Virus record (IMG/VR): IMGVR_UViG_3300001097_000029
Location: 1 to 25,687 of that record
Source of the DNA: a virus
Reading direction: 5' to 3' (one strand)
Length of the DNA stretch: 25,687 bases
The notes below the pieces were generated by a model that was given only the letters and a program-made list of their open reading frames with translations, was not told where the DNA came from and did not search any database. The position numbers and the translations under genes are program-made. Of this stretch, positions 5,394 through 20,795 are shown piece after piece; positions within the stretch are counted from its first letter, which is position 1, and every line of letters begins with the position of its first letter.

Positions 5394-5992
5394 TTATAAG
5401 TATTGATTTAATATTGAATCTCTTTTAGCCTTGCTGCTTGTCTGTGCAGCCTTGCCTTCGTTGCGCTGCTGTATTGTGTTTACTGTATTACTATTAATAC
5501 TTAAATTATCCAAAAGTAGTTCAAACCTTCGCCAACTTATATTACTTATAGCAAAAGACAGATCCATGCTGTATTCTCGCATAAAATCTGCCTCTATCAT
5601 GGCCCAATCTATAATAATATCGACTACTTTTGTATTGGAAAATTTGCTGCGCTTGTGCCTCCTGCTTTTACTTCATCTTCTCCTGGCTCTTTCTTTACTA
5701 GATCTGTATTGCCATATTCTGCTGCTGCCCACTCTATCACATCTTCCATCTGATCTACTGTAAACCCTTTTGTCATTAAATCATCTAGTTGTTTATTACC
5801 AAGTAAACTCTCACAAATTCCAAGTAGTAGGCCTGGATCTAAATCATCTTCTTTTTGTCCTCTTAGGATCTCGATCATTAATTTAGCAGGCATACTTGCA
5901 GGCATTGTATACTTAGTATTGAATAAAGAAAACACTAATAAAACACTTTTAGTACCCTCATAAAACTTGTCAAAATCTTTAAACTTAGCCAT
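5394..5992 (-). CDS. Tail assembly chaperone GT, made by -1 frameshift (G frame 5624-5992 plus T frame 5394-5639)
   Basis: Two overlapping frames precede the tape measure gene. The first (5992 to 5624, 122 residues, beginning MAKFKDFDKF) is a G-type tail chaperone. The second has an internal ATG at 5600, but its frame stays open upstream through VVDIIIDWA, and no ribosome site serves the ATG. In the overlap the mRNA reads GCA AAT TTT CCA, which contains the slippery heptamer A AAU UUU (5645-5639). A -1 shift there joins residues 1-118 to 81 T-frame residues, giving about 199 residues. G and GT coat and recruit the tape measure during tail assembly, as in lambda and many Gram-positive phages. 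No strong downstream stem is seen. The G-only product ends at the UAG at 5624-5626. Confidence 0.82.
5639..5645 (-). promoter_or_regulatory. -1 ribosomal frameshift slippery site, A AAU UUU
   Basis: On the minus strand the zero frame reads GCA AAT TTT CCA, so the heptamer fits X XXY YYZ exactly. The -1 frame runs open from here into the T coding region, and the zero frame stops five codons later. Position and gene order match the known G/GT frameshift. A weak CCAAT/ATTGG pairing downstream is too close to the site to be a convincing stimulator. Confidence 0.75.
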
Positions 5993-7061: not shown

Positions 7062-7411
7062 TACTTCAGCCCCTCCTTCATAAATCGTTGCATAGCTGCC
7101 TTTAATGTATTAACATTATTATTTTTTGCATTTACTAACCATTTCCCCTGGCCTTTACCTTTAAATTTATATTCAGGGTGTTCATGTAGTTTTATAGCAT
7201 ATGGCGTATCATAAAACACGCTGGCTGTTGGTGGTGTTTCTATATAGTCTACTGATCCACTATTTTCAAGTGTCCCCTTATCGTGTGGCACATGATCTTT
7301 TGATTTTTCCAGCAAAATTTCTGCTGTTTTTCTTACTGATATTACTGCTGCTGCTTTTATCTTTGCATTTATTTCAGGAACTCTTGAAGATGATCTTATT
7401 TTTACACTCAT
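7061..7411 (-). CDS. Minor capsid or head-tail joining protein (Minor_capsid_2/HK97 gp10-like)
   Basis: This 116-residue protein has an N-terminal helix (KIKAAAVISVRKTAEILLEKS), then DHVPHDKGTLENSGSVDY, AVFYDTPYAIKLHEHPEYKF and GKWLVNA. The motif order 'P.DTGTL..S' followed by 'YA..lHe....F..GK.W.' is the signature of the gp10-like and Minor_capsid_2 (PF11114) proteins, which act at the head-tail joint. It overlaps the upstream gene by 4 bases and the downstream one by 1 base, so the four connector genes are probably translationally coupled. AGGAAGTG lies 9 bases before the ATG. Confidence 0.72.
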   Translation of the reverse strand: MSVKIRSSSRVPEINAKIKAAAVISVRKTAEILLEKSKDHVPHDKGTLENSGSVDYIETPPTASVFYDTPYAIKLHEHPEYKFKGKGQGKWLVNAKNNNVNTLKAAMQRFMKEGLK

Positions 7412-7716
7412 TTTAAAAGCACTTCCTGGTGACTATAACTATTTATAGTCCATTGTTTTTGAACTGATATTGCTATATAGGCGTGTCCCTCAAAATAAAC
7501 TTTACTTTGTGCTGTTATATTCACACCTGGGCTTATAAACATTCTTGCTGTGCTTACAACTTCATTTCCGTTAGGATCAATGATTTTTTGTGCCATTGGT
7601 TCTACTCTACATTTAATAGCTGTAGATCCTGTGAATAGATCCTCATATGCGTTCTGCCCCAGGTAAACTTCTACTGTTGCGTTCTGTGTTAATAAAAAAC
7701 TAGGAATATTAAACAT
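7408..7716 (-). CDS. Head completion or stopper protein (Minor_capsid_1-like)
   Basis: This 102-residue beta-rich protein begins MFNIPSFLLTQNATVEVYLG and contains a conserved-looking 'RVEPMAQKIIDPNGNEVVSTARMFI' region with a 'Y.d...i.vr.ep..' pattern followed by strands. That fits PF10665/Minor_capsid_1 and SPP1 gp16-like stoppers that close the head after packaging. The ATG at 7716 follows a run of G residues; an upstream TTG at 7749 would overlap the previous gene and lacks a ribosome site. It lies between the adaptor gene and the gp10-like gene, the expected place. Confidence 0.62.
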   Translation of the reverse strand: MFNIPSFLLTQNATVEVYLGQNAYEDLFTGSTAIKCRVEPMAQKIIDPNGNEVVSTARMFISPGVNITAQSKVYFEGHAYIAISVQKQWTINSYSHQEVLLK

Positions 7717-10514: not shown

Positions 10515-11179
10515 CTATTTTTTCTTTCTACTTTTTTTTAATTCCTTCAGGCTAGGATCTACGAACTTTTCTTCTTTACCTTCCAGGATCTCATTTTTAA
10601 ATATTCCAGGGTATTCAGGGCCATTTTTTTCAGGATCATTTATAGGATCTTCAGGAAGTACAAAAAGCCCAGCAGCTTTATCTTCTGCTGCGCCTTTTAT
10701 ATCTTCTATGATTATATAATTTTCATCATTTTCTAGCCTATTTACTAGATCTTTATTAGACGTTGACCATATAACCCCAGTTTCCAGGTTTTTATAATAC
10801 TTAACTTTTAAACCTGGATCTTTTATTTTAAAGTTCCTAAAGCAAAAATAGTCCCTACAAACCCAGTTTCAAAATCAATATAAATTTTACCCTTATCTGC
10901 CCCTGTAATGTTTTCCCATCTCATGCCCTCTAATAAAATACTTGCCCTGCCTGTTGTTGCTGCAAGTTGAAAAACTTTATCACTTGCTGTACCATAAATT
11001 GATTTTATAGTAACGTTTTTAGGCGCTCCACTTGTTTGTGTTACTACTAACATTAATTGTTCACTTAATCCTGCGTCAACTATACAACCATCTGCGACTA
11101 CTGGTACTAGTGGTAAAGCTGCTGTATTTAAAAAATCATTTGCTACCATCTGATTAATTGGTAATACTTGTCTTGCCAT
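10515..11179 (-). CDS. Decoration-like protein with predicted -1 frameshift extension (zero frame 10823-11179)
   Basis: The zero-frame product has 118 residues (MARQVLPINQMVANDFLNTA to FALGTLK) and looks like a single beta-sandwich. After it a 103-codon frame in the -1 register runs to a UAG at 10517-10515 with ordinary coding composition but no ATG, GTG or TTG in its opening part. Its sequence, IKDPGLKVKYYKNLETGVIW followed by TSNKDLVNRLENDENY and ending KSRKKK, resembles small proteins found after coat genes in other phages (from memory). The zero frame ends ACU UUA AAA UAA, containing the canonical heptamer U UUA AAA. A shift would fuse GTLK to IKDPG and give 221 residues. AGGGGGG precedes the ATG at 11179. 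A separate gene with an AUA start is the alternative. Confidence 0.78.
10784..10832 (-). promoter_or_regulatory. -1 frameshift signal: slippery U UUA AAA (10832-10826), spacer and stem
   Basis: In the zero frame the heptamer reads ACU UUA AAA UAA, an exact X XXY YYZ site right before the stop. Seven bases downstream starts a perfect 9-bp stem: UCCAGGUUU (about 10818-10810) pairs with AAACCUGGA (about 10791-10783) around an 18-base loop. Spacing of 5-9 bases is the classic distance for a stimulatory structure. The -1 frame then stays open for 103 codons. Confidence 0.78.
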
Positions 11180-11245: not shown

Positions 11246-12190
11246 CTATAGTGCTGGCCTATTTACTATCAATACTGCTAAAGCTGTTGGGCGTGTAACT
11301 TTTGCGCCATAAAGATGAAGCCCTTTTAGTGCGTCTGCGAAACGTTTTTCAGGTCTATATGCCTCTGTGCTGTTAATTTGTTCTGCATAACTCCAAGCGC
11401 CATTGTACCCTGCAATTACTTTGTATTCTGTTGTTACTGTTGCAAAAGGTACTTGATTAGACTTCATAATCATAAAGCCAGCAGCCTCGCCTACCATACC
11501 ATTTATTCTAGTAGTTTCTGCTGTCTGATCTCCTGTTGCTACAAATCTATCATCTTTGAGTAATAGTCCATGATACCAGCTAGGTACTATGACAAATCTT
11601 CCAATCGTAGGCACATTACTTTCATCTAGTAAAATTCCTAAATCTACTAAAGCGTCATATGCGTCTGTTACTGCTGTAAATACAATAGGCGCTCCTACTG
11701 CTCCTAATAAATTACTTGCTGCTACCTCTGTATATAATCCTGCTATATAACTATCTGCAATTTTTGCTAAGCCATAAGCTGCCTCTGCCATAGCTTGCTG
11801 CATAACTTTTGGGTTCTGTTGTGCTGCGTCTATATCGTCAATTTGAAAATTGTAATATTTAGATTGTGAAATTAATAGTGTCCTGCTTGTATCTGTGAGT
11901 GTTTCAGGATCTCCAATATTTGTATTTTTAGCGTAGTCATCAATGGTAACTTCACCTATACCATTAATTTTAACTGTGTCGCCATACACGCTGATTTCAC
12001 CTTCATAATCTCTATTAATTACAGAAGGTTGGCCATAAATTAAAGCGTCTTTTAGTGTTACTAGTAGCTGTGCGCTCCATACTGCTGGAATAAAGTTATT
12101 GATTGTAAATCTATTAAGTGTTATTGCTTTGAAATTTTTATTAAGATTAGTTCGTGCGTTGAATTCTTGTACAAAATTTAATTTTTTCAT
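11246..12190 (-). CDS. Major capsid (coat) protein, P22-coat-like family
   Basis: This 314-residue protein has the plan of the short P22-coat-like coat proteins of Gram-positive siphoviruses: an N-terminal arm, TINNFIPAVWSAQLLVTLKD, a strand block with GDTVKINGIGEVTIDDY, LISQSKYYNFQIDDIDAAQQ, then AEAAYGLAKIADSYIAGLY and a C-terminal beta region ending LAVLIVNRPAL. It forms the icosahedral shell around the scaffold. AGGAGGAT precedes the ATG. It follows the scaffold gene by 19 bases and is followed by a strong hairpin. The N-terminal LNFVQEFNA only weakly resembles the Prp cleavage motif. Confidence 0.9.
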   Translation of the reverse strand: MKKLNFVQEFNARTNLNKNFKAITLNRFTINNFIPAVWSAQLLVTLKDALIYGQPSVINRDYEGEISVYGDTVKINGIGEVTIDDYAKNTNIGDPETLTDTSRTLLISQSKYYNFQIDDIDAAQQNPKVMQQAMAEAAYGLAKIADSYIAGLYTEVAASNLLGAVGAPIVFTAVTDAYDALVDLGILLDESNVPTIGRFVIVPSWYHGLLLKDDRFVATGDQTAETTRINGMVGEAAGFMIMKSNQVPFATVTTEYKVIAGYNGAWSYAEQINSTEAYRPEKRFADALKGLHLYGAKVTRPTALAVLIVNRPAL

Positions 12191-12209: not shown

Positions 12210-12935
12210 TTATTTTTTTAAAGGGTGAGCTGCCATAAATTCGTTAATTTGAGGTAACCTTTTTGTGACTTCTTCAGCGCTCATTTTTCTAATTAAATCA
12301 TAACTTAATGGTTCTTTATTTGTATCTCCATTGAATGATCCTCCACCAGTTCCTGGTAACTCTGTTTTAATTGTACCTAGTTCAGGAATATCTTCTAAAA
12401 TCTTTTTAATCTGACCATTTACAGCTACATCATCTAGTTTACCTTCCACTATATCCAAACTTTCTAAGTCCATTAATTTCATTAAATATGATATTTTTTC
12501 AGGCTTTACTCCTGCTGCTGTAGCTGCTTGTTTAATTTCATTATTACGTAAGTATGAATTGTTTTTATTAATGGCCTGATCTCTTTCTAGTGTTAGATCC
12601 TGCTGGCGTTGTATTGCTCTTTCTAAATCTGTCTTGCCCTCTAGATCTTTTGCTGCTTTATCATCTAACATTGCTTTTAATGCTGTTTCATCTTTTAAGC
12701 CCATACCCTGCAAAAGTGTAGCCATTTGTTTTTTTGCCTCTCTCTGAATTCTAGTCATAAAAGATTTTTCATCAGGAAAACTTGCAAAAGGATCTTTTGC
12801 TGGTGGATCTGCTGGTGGATCTGCTGGTGGATCTCCTGCTGGTGGATCTATAGCTGGTGGATCTCCTGCTGGTGGATCTGTTTCACCAAATAAAGATAAA
12901 TTAAAGTTGAATAGTTTTTTTAATTTCAATAACAT
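12210..12935 (-). CDS. Capsid scaffold protein (DUF4355-like) with a putative Prp cleavage motif
   Basis: This 241-residue acidic, helical protein is the scaffold that shapes the procapsid. After a short basic/hydrophobic N-terminus (MLLKLKKLFNFNLSLF) comes a Pro/Ala/Asp-rich linker with repeated DPPA units (about residues 19-50). A coiled-coil-like region follows, beginning FASFPDEKSFMTRIQREAKK, with DLEGKTDLERAIQRQQDLTL later, and a C-terminal helix ending AAHPLKK. DUF4355 scaffolds of Gram-positive phages have the same plan. The N-terminal FNLSLF followed by GETD matches the motif cut by Prp protease in ribosomal protein L27 (NLQLF before A) and in the scaffold of phage 80alpha. The gene lies between the Prp-like gene and the coat gene. 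GGAGGT precedes the ATG. Confidence 0.85.
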   Translation of the reverse strand: MLLKLKKLFNFNLSLFGETDPPAGDPPAIDPPAGDPPADPPADPPAKDPFASFPDEKSFMTRIQREAKKQMATLLQGMGLKDETALKAMLDDKAAKDLEGKTDLERAIQRQQDLTLERDQAINKNNSYLRNNEIKQAATAAGVKPEKISYLMKLMDLESLDIVEGKLDDVAVNGQIKKILEDIPELGTIKTELPGTGGGSFNGDTNKEPLSYDLIRKMSAEEVTKRLPQINEFMAAHPLKK

Positions 12936-19901: not shown

Positions 19902-20795
19902 TTATCTTAGCCCATTTTTTTTCAACTGATCTTTTAAATTAAAGTCTTTTACTTCATCTTCTACTGGATCTTCTTTTACTTCATCTTCTACTGGATCTTC
20001 TCCTGGATCTTCTTTTACTTCATCTTCTACTGGATCTTTGAAAATATCTTCAGGATCTAGTTCTGCTGCTAGTTGTTGAAATTCTTCTCCTGCTGCTGAT
20101 CTCTCATAACTTTTATCATCTAATATAAATCTTATTGAAGTTACTTTTTTGCCTGTTTTAATTTCTACAATTTCAAAATTTACATCTGAATATAACCTTA
20201 ATTCTTTTTCAGCCATTTCCAAAACTTTCACTTTAAAATTATTATATGATTTATAGCTTTTAAGATCTGCGTCTAAATATTTTTTTAAATCAGTTAATGA
20301 AATTTCATATGTATTTTTTTTATACTTTTCAATTTTATATATCTGATTTTTTAATAGTTCATAGATTTTTATACTGTATTTACTTTTCATTTGCAATATA
20401 TTTTCAAGTTTATACTTTAAAAAAAGTCCTTTGAGATCTAATAAATATGGCATTAATTGATCACTTAACTTAATTTTAATTATTCCCTTTTTTTTAATAT
20501 GTATAGCACTTTCAATCCAGTGACACTGTAATAAATTACCTTCATCATTTTCTAGTTCTATTACTTCCCTCATGATATCCCTAGTGATCTTTATTATTTC
20601 TGAATATTTAATACTTTTATTTTTACATAAACTTTGAAAATCTTTTATTCTAAGATCATATAATTTAAAGTGATCATCATTAGGTTGTACTAAACTGGCC
20701 AGCGTTAATATTAACTTCTGTTGTAGTGCTGATAAAGTATTTTTATTTCCACATACTAATTTATTGGCCTTTGATACGCTGTATTCTTCTTTCAT
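19902..20795 (-). CDS. Replication initiator, Rep_3 family (RepB-like)
   Basis: This 297-residue protein starts plasmid-type replication by binding iterons. Residues 1-230 show the two winged-helix plan of Rep_3 (PF01051): VSKANKLVCGNKNTLSALQQ, KLILTLASLVQPND, YDLRIKDFQSLC, then FLKYKLENILQMKSKYSIKI, YELLKNQIYKIEKY, ISLTDLKKYLDAD, YNNFKVKVLEMAEKEL and GKKVTSIRFIL. About residues 245-297 form an acidic tail with repeated EDPVEDEVK units, ending FNLKDQLKKNG, which is not usual for the family. Four iterons begin 88 bases upstream. AAGGGGGT precedes the ATG. Confidence 0.92.
   Translation of the reverse strand: MKEEYSVSKANKLVCGNKNTLSALQQKLILTLASLVQPNDDHFKLYDLRIKDFQSLCKNKSIKYSEIIKITRDIMREVIELENDEGNLLQCHWIESAIHIKKKGIIKIKLSDQLMPYLLDLKGLFLKYKLENILQMKSKYSIKIYELLKNQIYKIEKYKKNTYEISLTDLKKYLDADLKSYKSYNNFKVKVLEMAEKELRLYSDVNFEIVEIKTGKKVTSIRFILDDKSYERSAAGEEFQQLAAELDPEDIFKDPVEDEVKEDPGEDPVEDEVKEDPVEDEVKDFNLKDQLKKNGLR
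19945..20038 (-). repeat. Tandem 27-bp coding repeats in the rep acidic tail
   Basis: The plus strand repeats TCTTTTACTTCATCTTCTAC followed by TGGATCT, with one shortened unit between copies (TCTCCTGGATCT). On the coding strand this gives EDPVEDEVK repeated three times with an EDPG insertion. Near-identity at DNA level suggests recent expansion, so repeat number may vary between isolates. Confidence 0.8.

Follow-up and report, generated by a model that had tools for sequence, protein, structure and literature searches.

A head gene without a usual start codon overlaps a decoration-like protein gene in a tailed phage: coupled reinitiation or a -1 frameshift

Introduction

How is a conserved phage head gene translated when its reading frame contains no usual start codon? 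This question is raised by two overlapping frames, gene A and ORF2, in a 25,687-nt stretch of DNA (the window) taken from a 33,577-base record of a tailed phage. Gene A ends at a canonical slippery heptamer, and ORF2 continues in the -1 register. A first-pass annotation, whose coordinates proved correct, had predicted a programmed -1 frameshift at this junction. All of the gene A and ORF2 elements are located on the minus strand.

Gene Context and Predicted Head Proteins

The genes at this locus are as follows:
11246..12190, minus strand: major head protein gene (phrog_267, E = 1.2e-66), upstream of gene A and given as context
10823..11179, minus strand: gene A, an ORF after the major head gene, encoding a decoration-like head protein of 118 aa
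10515..10826, minus strand: ORF2 as read from AUA, a small post-capsid head gene of 103 aa with a DUF7302-like N-terminal domain

Gene A was homologous to post-capsid genes of phrog_24894 (E = 1.4e-6) and to a gene in the relative L061 (E = 1.6e-26). Structure prediction gave a beta-sandwich (pLDDT 86.6) that resembled uncharacterised phage proteins, and its matches in the PDB were weak (best E = 0.02, TM about 0.4). Its position and fold type suggest that gene A may encode a capsid decoration protein. DP-rich repeats (DPVEDEVKE, DPPAGDPP) were observed in two window proteins, encoded at 19902-20795 and 12210-12935 (minus strand); the latter protein is scaffold-like, and these repeats recall the KDP/EDP/NDP runs of ORF2. 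As a further feature of these genomes, GATC was about 2.1-2.7-fold more frequent than expected from a dinucleotide chain in the window (199 observed vs. 83.5 expected), L001, L002, L157, and L158; the excess was absent from the outgroups L009 and L032. Among the other palindromes checked, GGCC alone was mildly raised, in some sequences.

The stop-to-stop frame of ORF2 (10868..10515, minus strand) lies in the -1 register relative to gene A. It was first described as a 103-codon frame without a nearby start, which holds for its full length: ATG, GTG, and TTG occur nowhere in 10868..10515, and ORF2 is the sole long conserved frame on the coding strand that lacks all three. An in-frame CUG 12 codons into ORF2 was rejected as a start because it lies inside a conserved motif. 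Comparison of the window with L001 showed purifying selection on ORF2 (dN 0.28, dS 0.87), with a constraint about equal to that of gene A (dN 0.29, dS 0.81). Because the window was among the seeds of an earlier ORF2 profile, homology was retested with a profile built from relatives outside the clade. This clade-free profile matched the ORF2 of the window (E = 2.9e-7) and, among 360 frames, the ORF2 of the window, L001, and L002 alone; the homology to the stand-alone genes concerns the N-terminal domain.

Most ORF2-type relatives are short, about 50-100 codons long, and sit immediately downstream of the major head gene, each starting at an ATG or GTG of its own. They include gp45 of phage AP45, which passes the Pfam DUF7302 model (29.4 bits vs. 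a cut-off of 24.9 bits); the ORF2 of the window gave no match to this model above the cut-off. Most of the phages examined carry either the gene A type or the ORF2 type, and a few have both in tandem. The structural model of ORF2 contained a small N-terminal beta-beta-alpha-beta domain followed by a low-confidence remainder with a basic tail, and a PDB structure search with this model returned no useful match. ORF2 is a real and conserved gene that looks translated, and it probably depends on the preceding gene A for its expression. It may encode a low-copy accessory head protein, since a weak start would keep its output low relative to that of gene A. The initial proposal that ORF2 is a charged C-terminal anchor made only by frameshifting was abandoned, because ORF2 is homologous to stand-alone head genes. 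Gene prediction restricted to ATG, GTG, or TTG starts would overlook this conserved head gene.

Heptamer, Stem, and Overlap at the Junction

The elements of the junction are as follows:
10826..10832, minus strand: slippery heptamer U_UUA_AAA (T_TTA_AAA) in the gene A frame, with the UAA stop immediately 3'
10818..10810 and 10791..10783, minus strand: arms of a perfect 9-bp stem, TCCAGGTTT/AAACCTGGA, with an 18-nt loop (-10.9 kcal/mol)
10823..10826, minus strand: AUAA overlap, with the candidate AUA start at 10826..10824 and the UAA stop at 10825..10823, matching the ATGA/GTGA of relatives
10835..10838, minus strand: weak SD-like AGGA, 8 nt 5' of the AUA (duplex -4.2 kcal/mol)

The 3' end of gene A reads GGA ACT TTA AAA TAA. 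The 118-codon gene thus ends in ACU UUA AAA UAA as first reported, with U_UUA_AAA at 10832..10826 (minus strand), and the perfect 9-bp stem 7 bases downstream was likewise recovered. This spacing lies within the approximately 5-9 nt expected for a frameshift stimulator. The chance of T_TTA_AAA, given Thr-Leu-Lys and local codon use, was P = 0.12; in-frame slippery heptamers numbered 59 per 5244 codons, and one stood directly 5' of the stop in 5 of the 37 window gene ends. The heptamer alone is therefore weak evidence for frameshifting. Perfect stems of at least 9 bp at a spacing of 5-9 nt were found at 0.27% of positions and in 0.075% of codon shuffles. The folding energy of the stem was unremarkable, however: it was equalled in 17 of 200 dinucleotide shuffles (z = -1.54), and folding was as strong at 6 of 37 gene ends, that of gene A included. 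Taken together, heptamer and stem form a signal that is suggestive, not compelling.

The SD energies of ORF2 in the three clade members were -4.2, -4.7, and -0.1 kcal/mol; most other genes had values of about -7 to -13 kcal/mol. The lack of a strong SD for ORF2 in all three is expected for a coupled gene. The window codon aligned to the AUG of L002 is AAA, and AUA is the sole remaining candidate. A coupled pair has a recognised start codon at its overlap; the window has AUA only, and the pair was therefore classed as derived from, and working like, a coupled pair rather than as a standard member.

Two other sites in the window were used for comparison:
7408..7417, minus strand: ordinary coupled gene pair joined at TTTAAAATGA, an internal control with a U_UUA_AAA heptamer and AUG present
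5639..5645, minus strand: tail-chaperone-like G/GT -1 site A_AAU_UUU (pair 5992..5624 plus a -1 T frame to 5394)

Among 206 ATG-type coupled pairs from all loci, the pair joined at TTTAAAATGA was the sole one with a heptamer at its junction, and such junctions (1/206) are thus uncommon outside the AT-rich genome of the window. The tail-chaperone heptamer A_AAU_UUU was also found in the genome of L001 (L157), equally far from the stop, and it differs in L002 (L158). The window and L001 therefore share the tail-chaperone site, yet differ in the gene A-ORF2 heptamer.

Comparison with Relatives

Scans of viral contigs detected the gene pair of this clade in L001 and L002 only, whose coat proteins were 83% and 75% identical to that of the window, respectively. 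Two scans of genome contigs found no relatives of the pair, and none were found among INPHARED phages searched with the fusion protein and its homologues. L010 agreed exactly with the first part of the coat gene and ended before the gene A/ORF2 region. In both L001 and L002, ORF2 comes after gene A, in the register that it has in the window. The junction of L001 reads ACG TTA AAA TAA TAG ATC, with G_TTA_AAA, ATA ATA only, and no AUG; that of L002 reads ACA TTA AAA TAA TGG AAG, with A_TTA_AAA and an ATG that overlaps the stop (TAATG). A 9-bp stem or an equivalent was sought at both junctions and was absent from each. Conservation of heptamer, spacer, and stem, which the first-pass annotation had proposed to check, was thus not found, and the canonical heptamer was conserved in neither of the two relatives with the gene pair of the clade. 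In L001 (4968-5714), the decoration-like gene is present as a tandem duplicate, and the overlapping ORF2 follows the second copy only.

ORF2 was in the -1 register in all seven independent tandems (the window, L001, L002, L047, L083, L092, and L151); L147 was excluded from this count because its ORF2-type match precedes gene A. In the more distant tandems of L083, L092, and L151, ORF2 starts at ATGA, and in L047 it starts at GTGA or at an ATG 6 nt further on. The gene A-like protein of L047 (4370-5274, with the ORF2-type gene at GTGA) has a long acidic N-terminal part. The overlapping start of these four aligns exactly with the ATA of the ATAA in the window, and a downstream start within a few nucleotides of the upstream stop was kept in L002, L047, L083, L092, and L151. 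The -1 register is inherited from this stop/start overlap and does not count as independent evidence of frameshifting; ATGA overlaps explain it. The missing start of the window fits a single G>A change (ATGA to ATAA, which turns UGA into UAA and AUG into AUA), within a presumed order of mutations in the clade. The picture of relatives with an ordinary start and no heptamer, which had been named in advance as evidence against frameshifting, was largely what emerged: L002 has TAATG, and four others have ATGA or GTGA.

Translation of ORF2

The preferred reading, with a probability of roughly 0.55, is translational coupling from gene A to ORF2 with reinitiation at the near-cognate AUA. In this reading, gene A and ORF2 are distinct head genes linked through a stop/start overlap, with expression by termination-reinitiation. 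Relatives begin ORF2 at an AUG or GUG that overlaps the gene A stop (AUGA, GUGA) or at UAAUG, and one G>A change would give the AUAA overlap of the window. After terminating on gene A, ribosomes most likely reinitiate weakly at the AUA, perhaps aided by the AGGA 8 nt upstream, which would yield a small quantity of a free-standing protein of about 103 aa. Some ribosomes may additionally slip at U_UUA_AAA, and both routes may act on the same mRNA.

Stop/start overlaps are known to reinitiate (PMC6728339), and stop and start codons at one place have been described as an indicator of coupling, and a conserved shift site as one of frameshifting (PMC3711429). Reinitiation is supported by the ORF2-type genes found elsewhere, which are independent genes that carry an ATG or GTG start, and by the second gene pair of the window, joined at TTTAAAATGA. 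Furthermore, ORF2 is still constrained in L001, which has neither an AUG nor a canonical heptamer, and a heptamer-free route must therefore work there. AUA starts in Staphylococcus aureus, which reach about 10-30% of AUG (PMC13009471), also speak for this reading. On the other hand, those starts have extended SDs, whereas the SD of the window is weak. A stable stem just 3' of a stop reportedly inhibits reinitiation and is depleted at overlaps (PMC7518266), so that the stem is no help to the AUA model, and a perfect stem 7 nt past a canonical heptamer is unlikely to have arisen by chance.

A -1 frameshift specific to the window lineage is a less probable alternative, in which slippage at U_UUA_AAA, stimulated by the 9-bp stem, would yield a minority 221-aa gene A-ORF2 fusion. 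The textbook order of the predicted signal does stand in the window: canonical heptamer, adjacent stop, 7-nt spacer, and perfect stem all fit, the stem is rare at its spacing, and ORF2 has no AUG, GUG, or UUG (L001 likewise has no AUG). Most X_XXZ_ZZN heptamers shift measurably in Escherichia coli with a stimulator (PMC4066793), and T3 and phage A2 are known to make head proteins extended by frameshifting (PMC5009743). However, the heptamer and stem are absent in L001 and L002, and the tail-chaperone heptamer, by contrast, is identical in the window and L001. The register is accounted for by ATGA overlaps, and the heptamer alone would be expected at 12%. It is less likely than not that, once the start codon was lost, reinitiation in this coupled head-gene pair gave way to a -1 frameshift that evolved anew at U_UUA_AAA with its stem. 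If true, a decoration-like protein and a second head protein, formerly separate, would now be joined in a minority fusion product.

Slippage of a single peptidyl-tRNA-Lys from AAA to AAA (A_AAA) at the UAA would require no full heptamer and could serve the whole clade, including L001 with neither AUG nor heptamer. The sequence TTAAAATAA is identical in the window, L001, and L002, but its conservation follows from the LK end of the protein, and the same nine bases also end the first gene A copy of L001, where an ordinary SD and ATG follow. Since A_AA.A was also the weakest of six clearly active tetramers, even with a pseudoknot (PMC4066793), this route is highly improbable. An error in sequencing or assembly is highly improbable as well, as is a recent mutation of the start codon after which ORF2 went untranslated in the window genome. 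The genome is known from a single contig and the start codon hangs on one base, but L001 independently lacks the ATG and ORF2 is under purifying selection. Moreover, no indel is needed, because the register of ORF2 is identical in all relatives.

Overall, the sequence features first reported are confirmed, and the frameshift interpretation is supported in part. These results point to an overlap-coupled pair of head genes that has lost its start codon and that may or may not have turned to frameshifting in this lineage. An ATGA overlap can lose its start in one step and then mimic a frameshift site, which is a trap for annotation. The natural junction series of ATGA, TAATG, ATAATA, and ATAAAA with heptamer and stem bears on whether reinitiation can pass into programmed frameshifting.

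Comparison with Known Systems

In gene 10 of T3/T7 and in Lactobacillus phage A2 (PMC5009743), a canonical heptamer gives a minority of a head protein a C-terminal extension, and the locus described here would be alike if its site works. The upstream gene is decoration-like here, whereas it encodes the major coat protein in the T3/T7 and A2 systems. Unlike in those systems, the heptamer and stem of the window are not conserved, and relatives encode the extension as a gene of its own.

The DUF7302 (PF23976)-like gene gp45 of Aeribacillus phage AP45 has the N-terminal motif KN..TG..W in common with ORF2 and also lies in the head gene cluster. Unlike the ORF2 of the window, gp45 starts at an ATG of its own and lies immediately downstream of the major head gene; ORF2 in turn differs from gp45 in its N-terminal extension, its longer tail, and its score below the Pfam cut-off.

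The AUGA/UGAUG coupled pairs (PMC6728339) resemble this locus in overlap geometry, -1 register, weak downstream SD, and operon neighbours. The overlap codon of the window is AUA (AUAA), not AUG as in standard coupled pairs, and reinitiation there would thus be at a near-cognate codon, whereas relatives of the window carry true ATGA, GTGA, or TAATG overlaps, as standard coupled pairs do.
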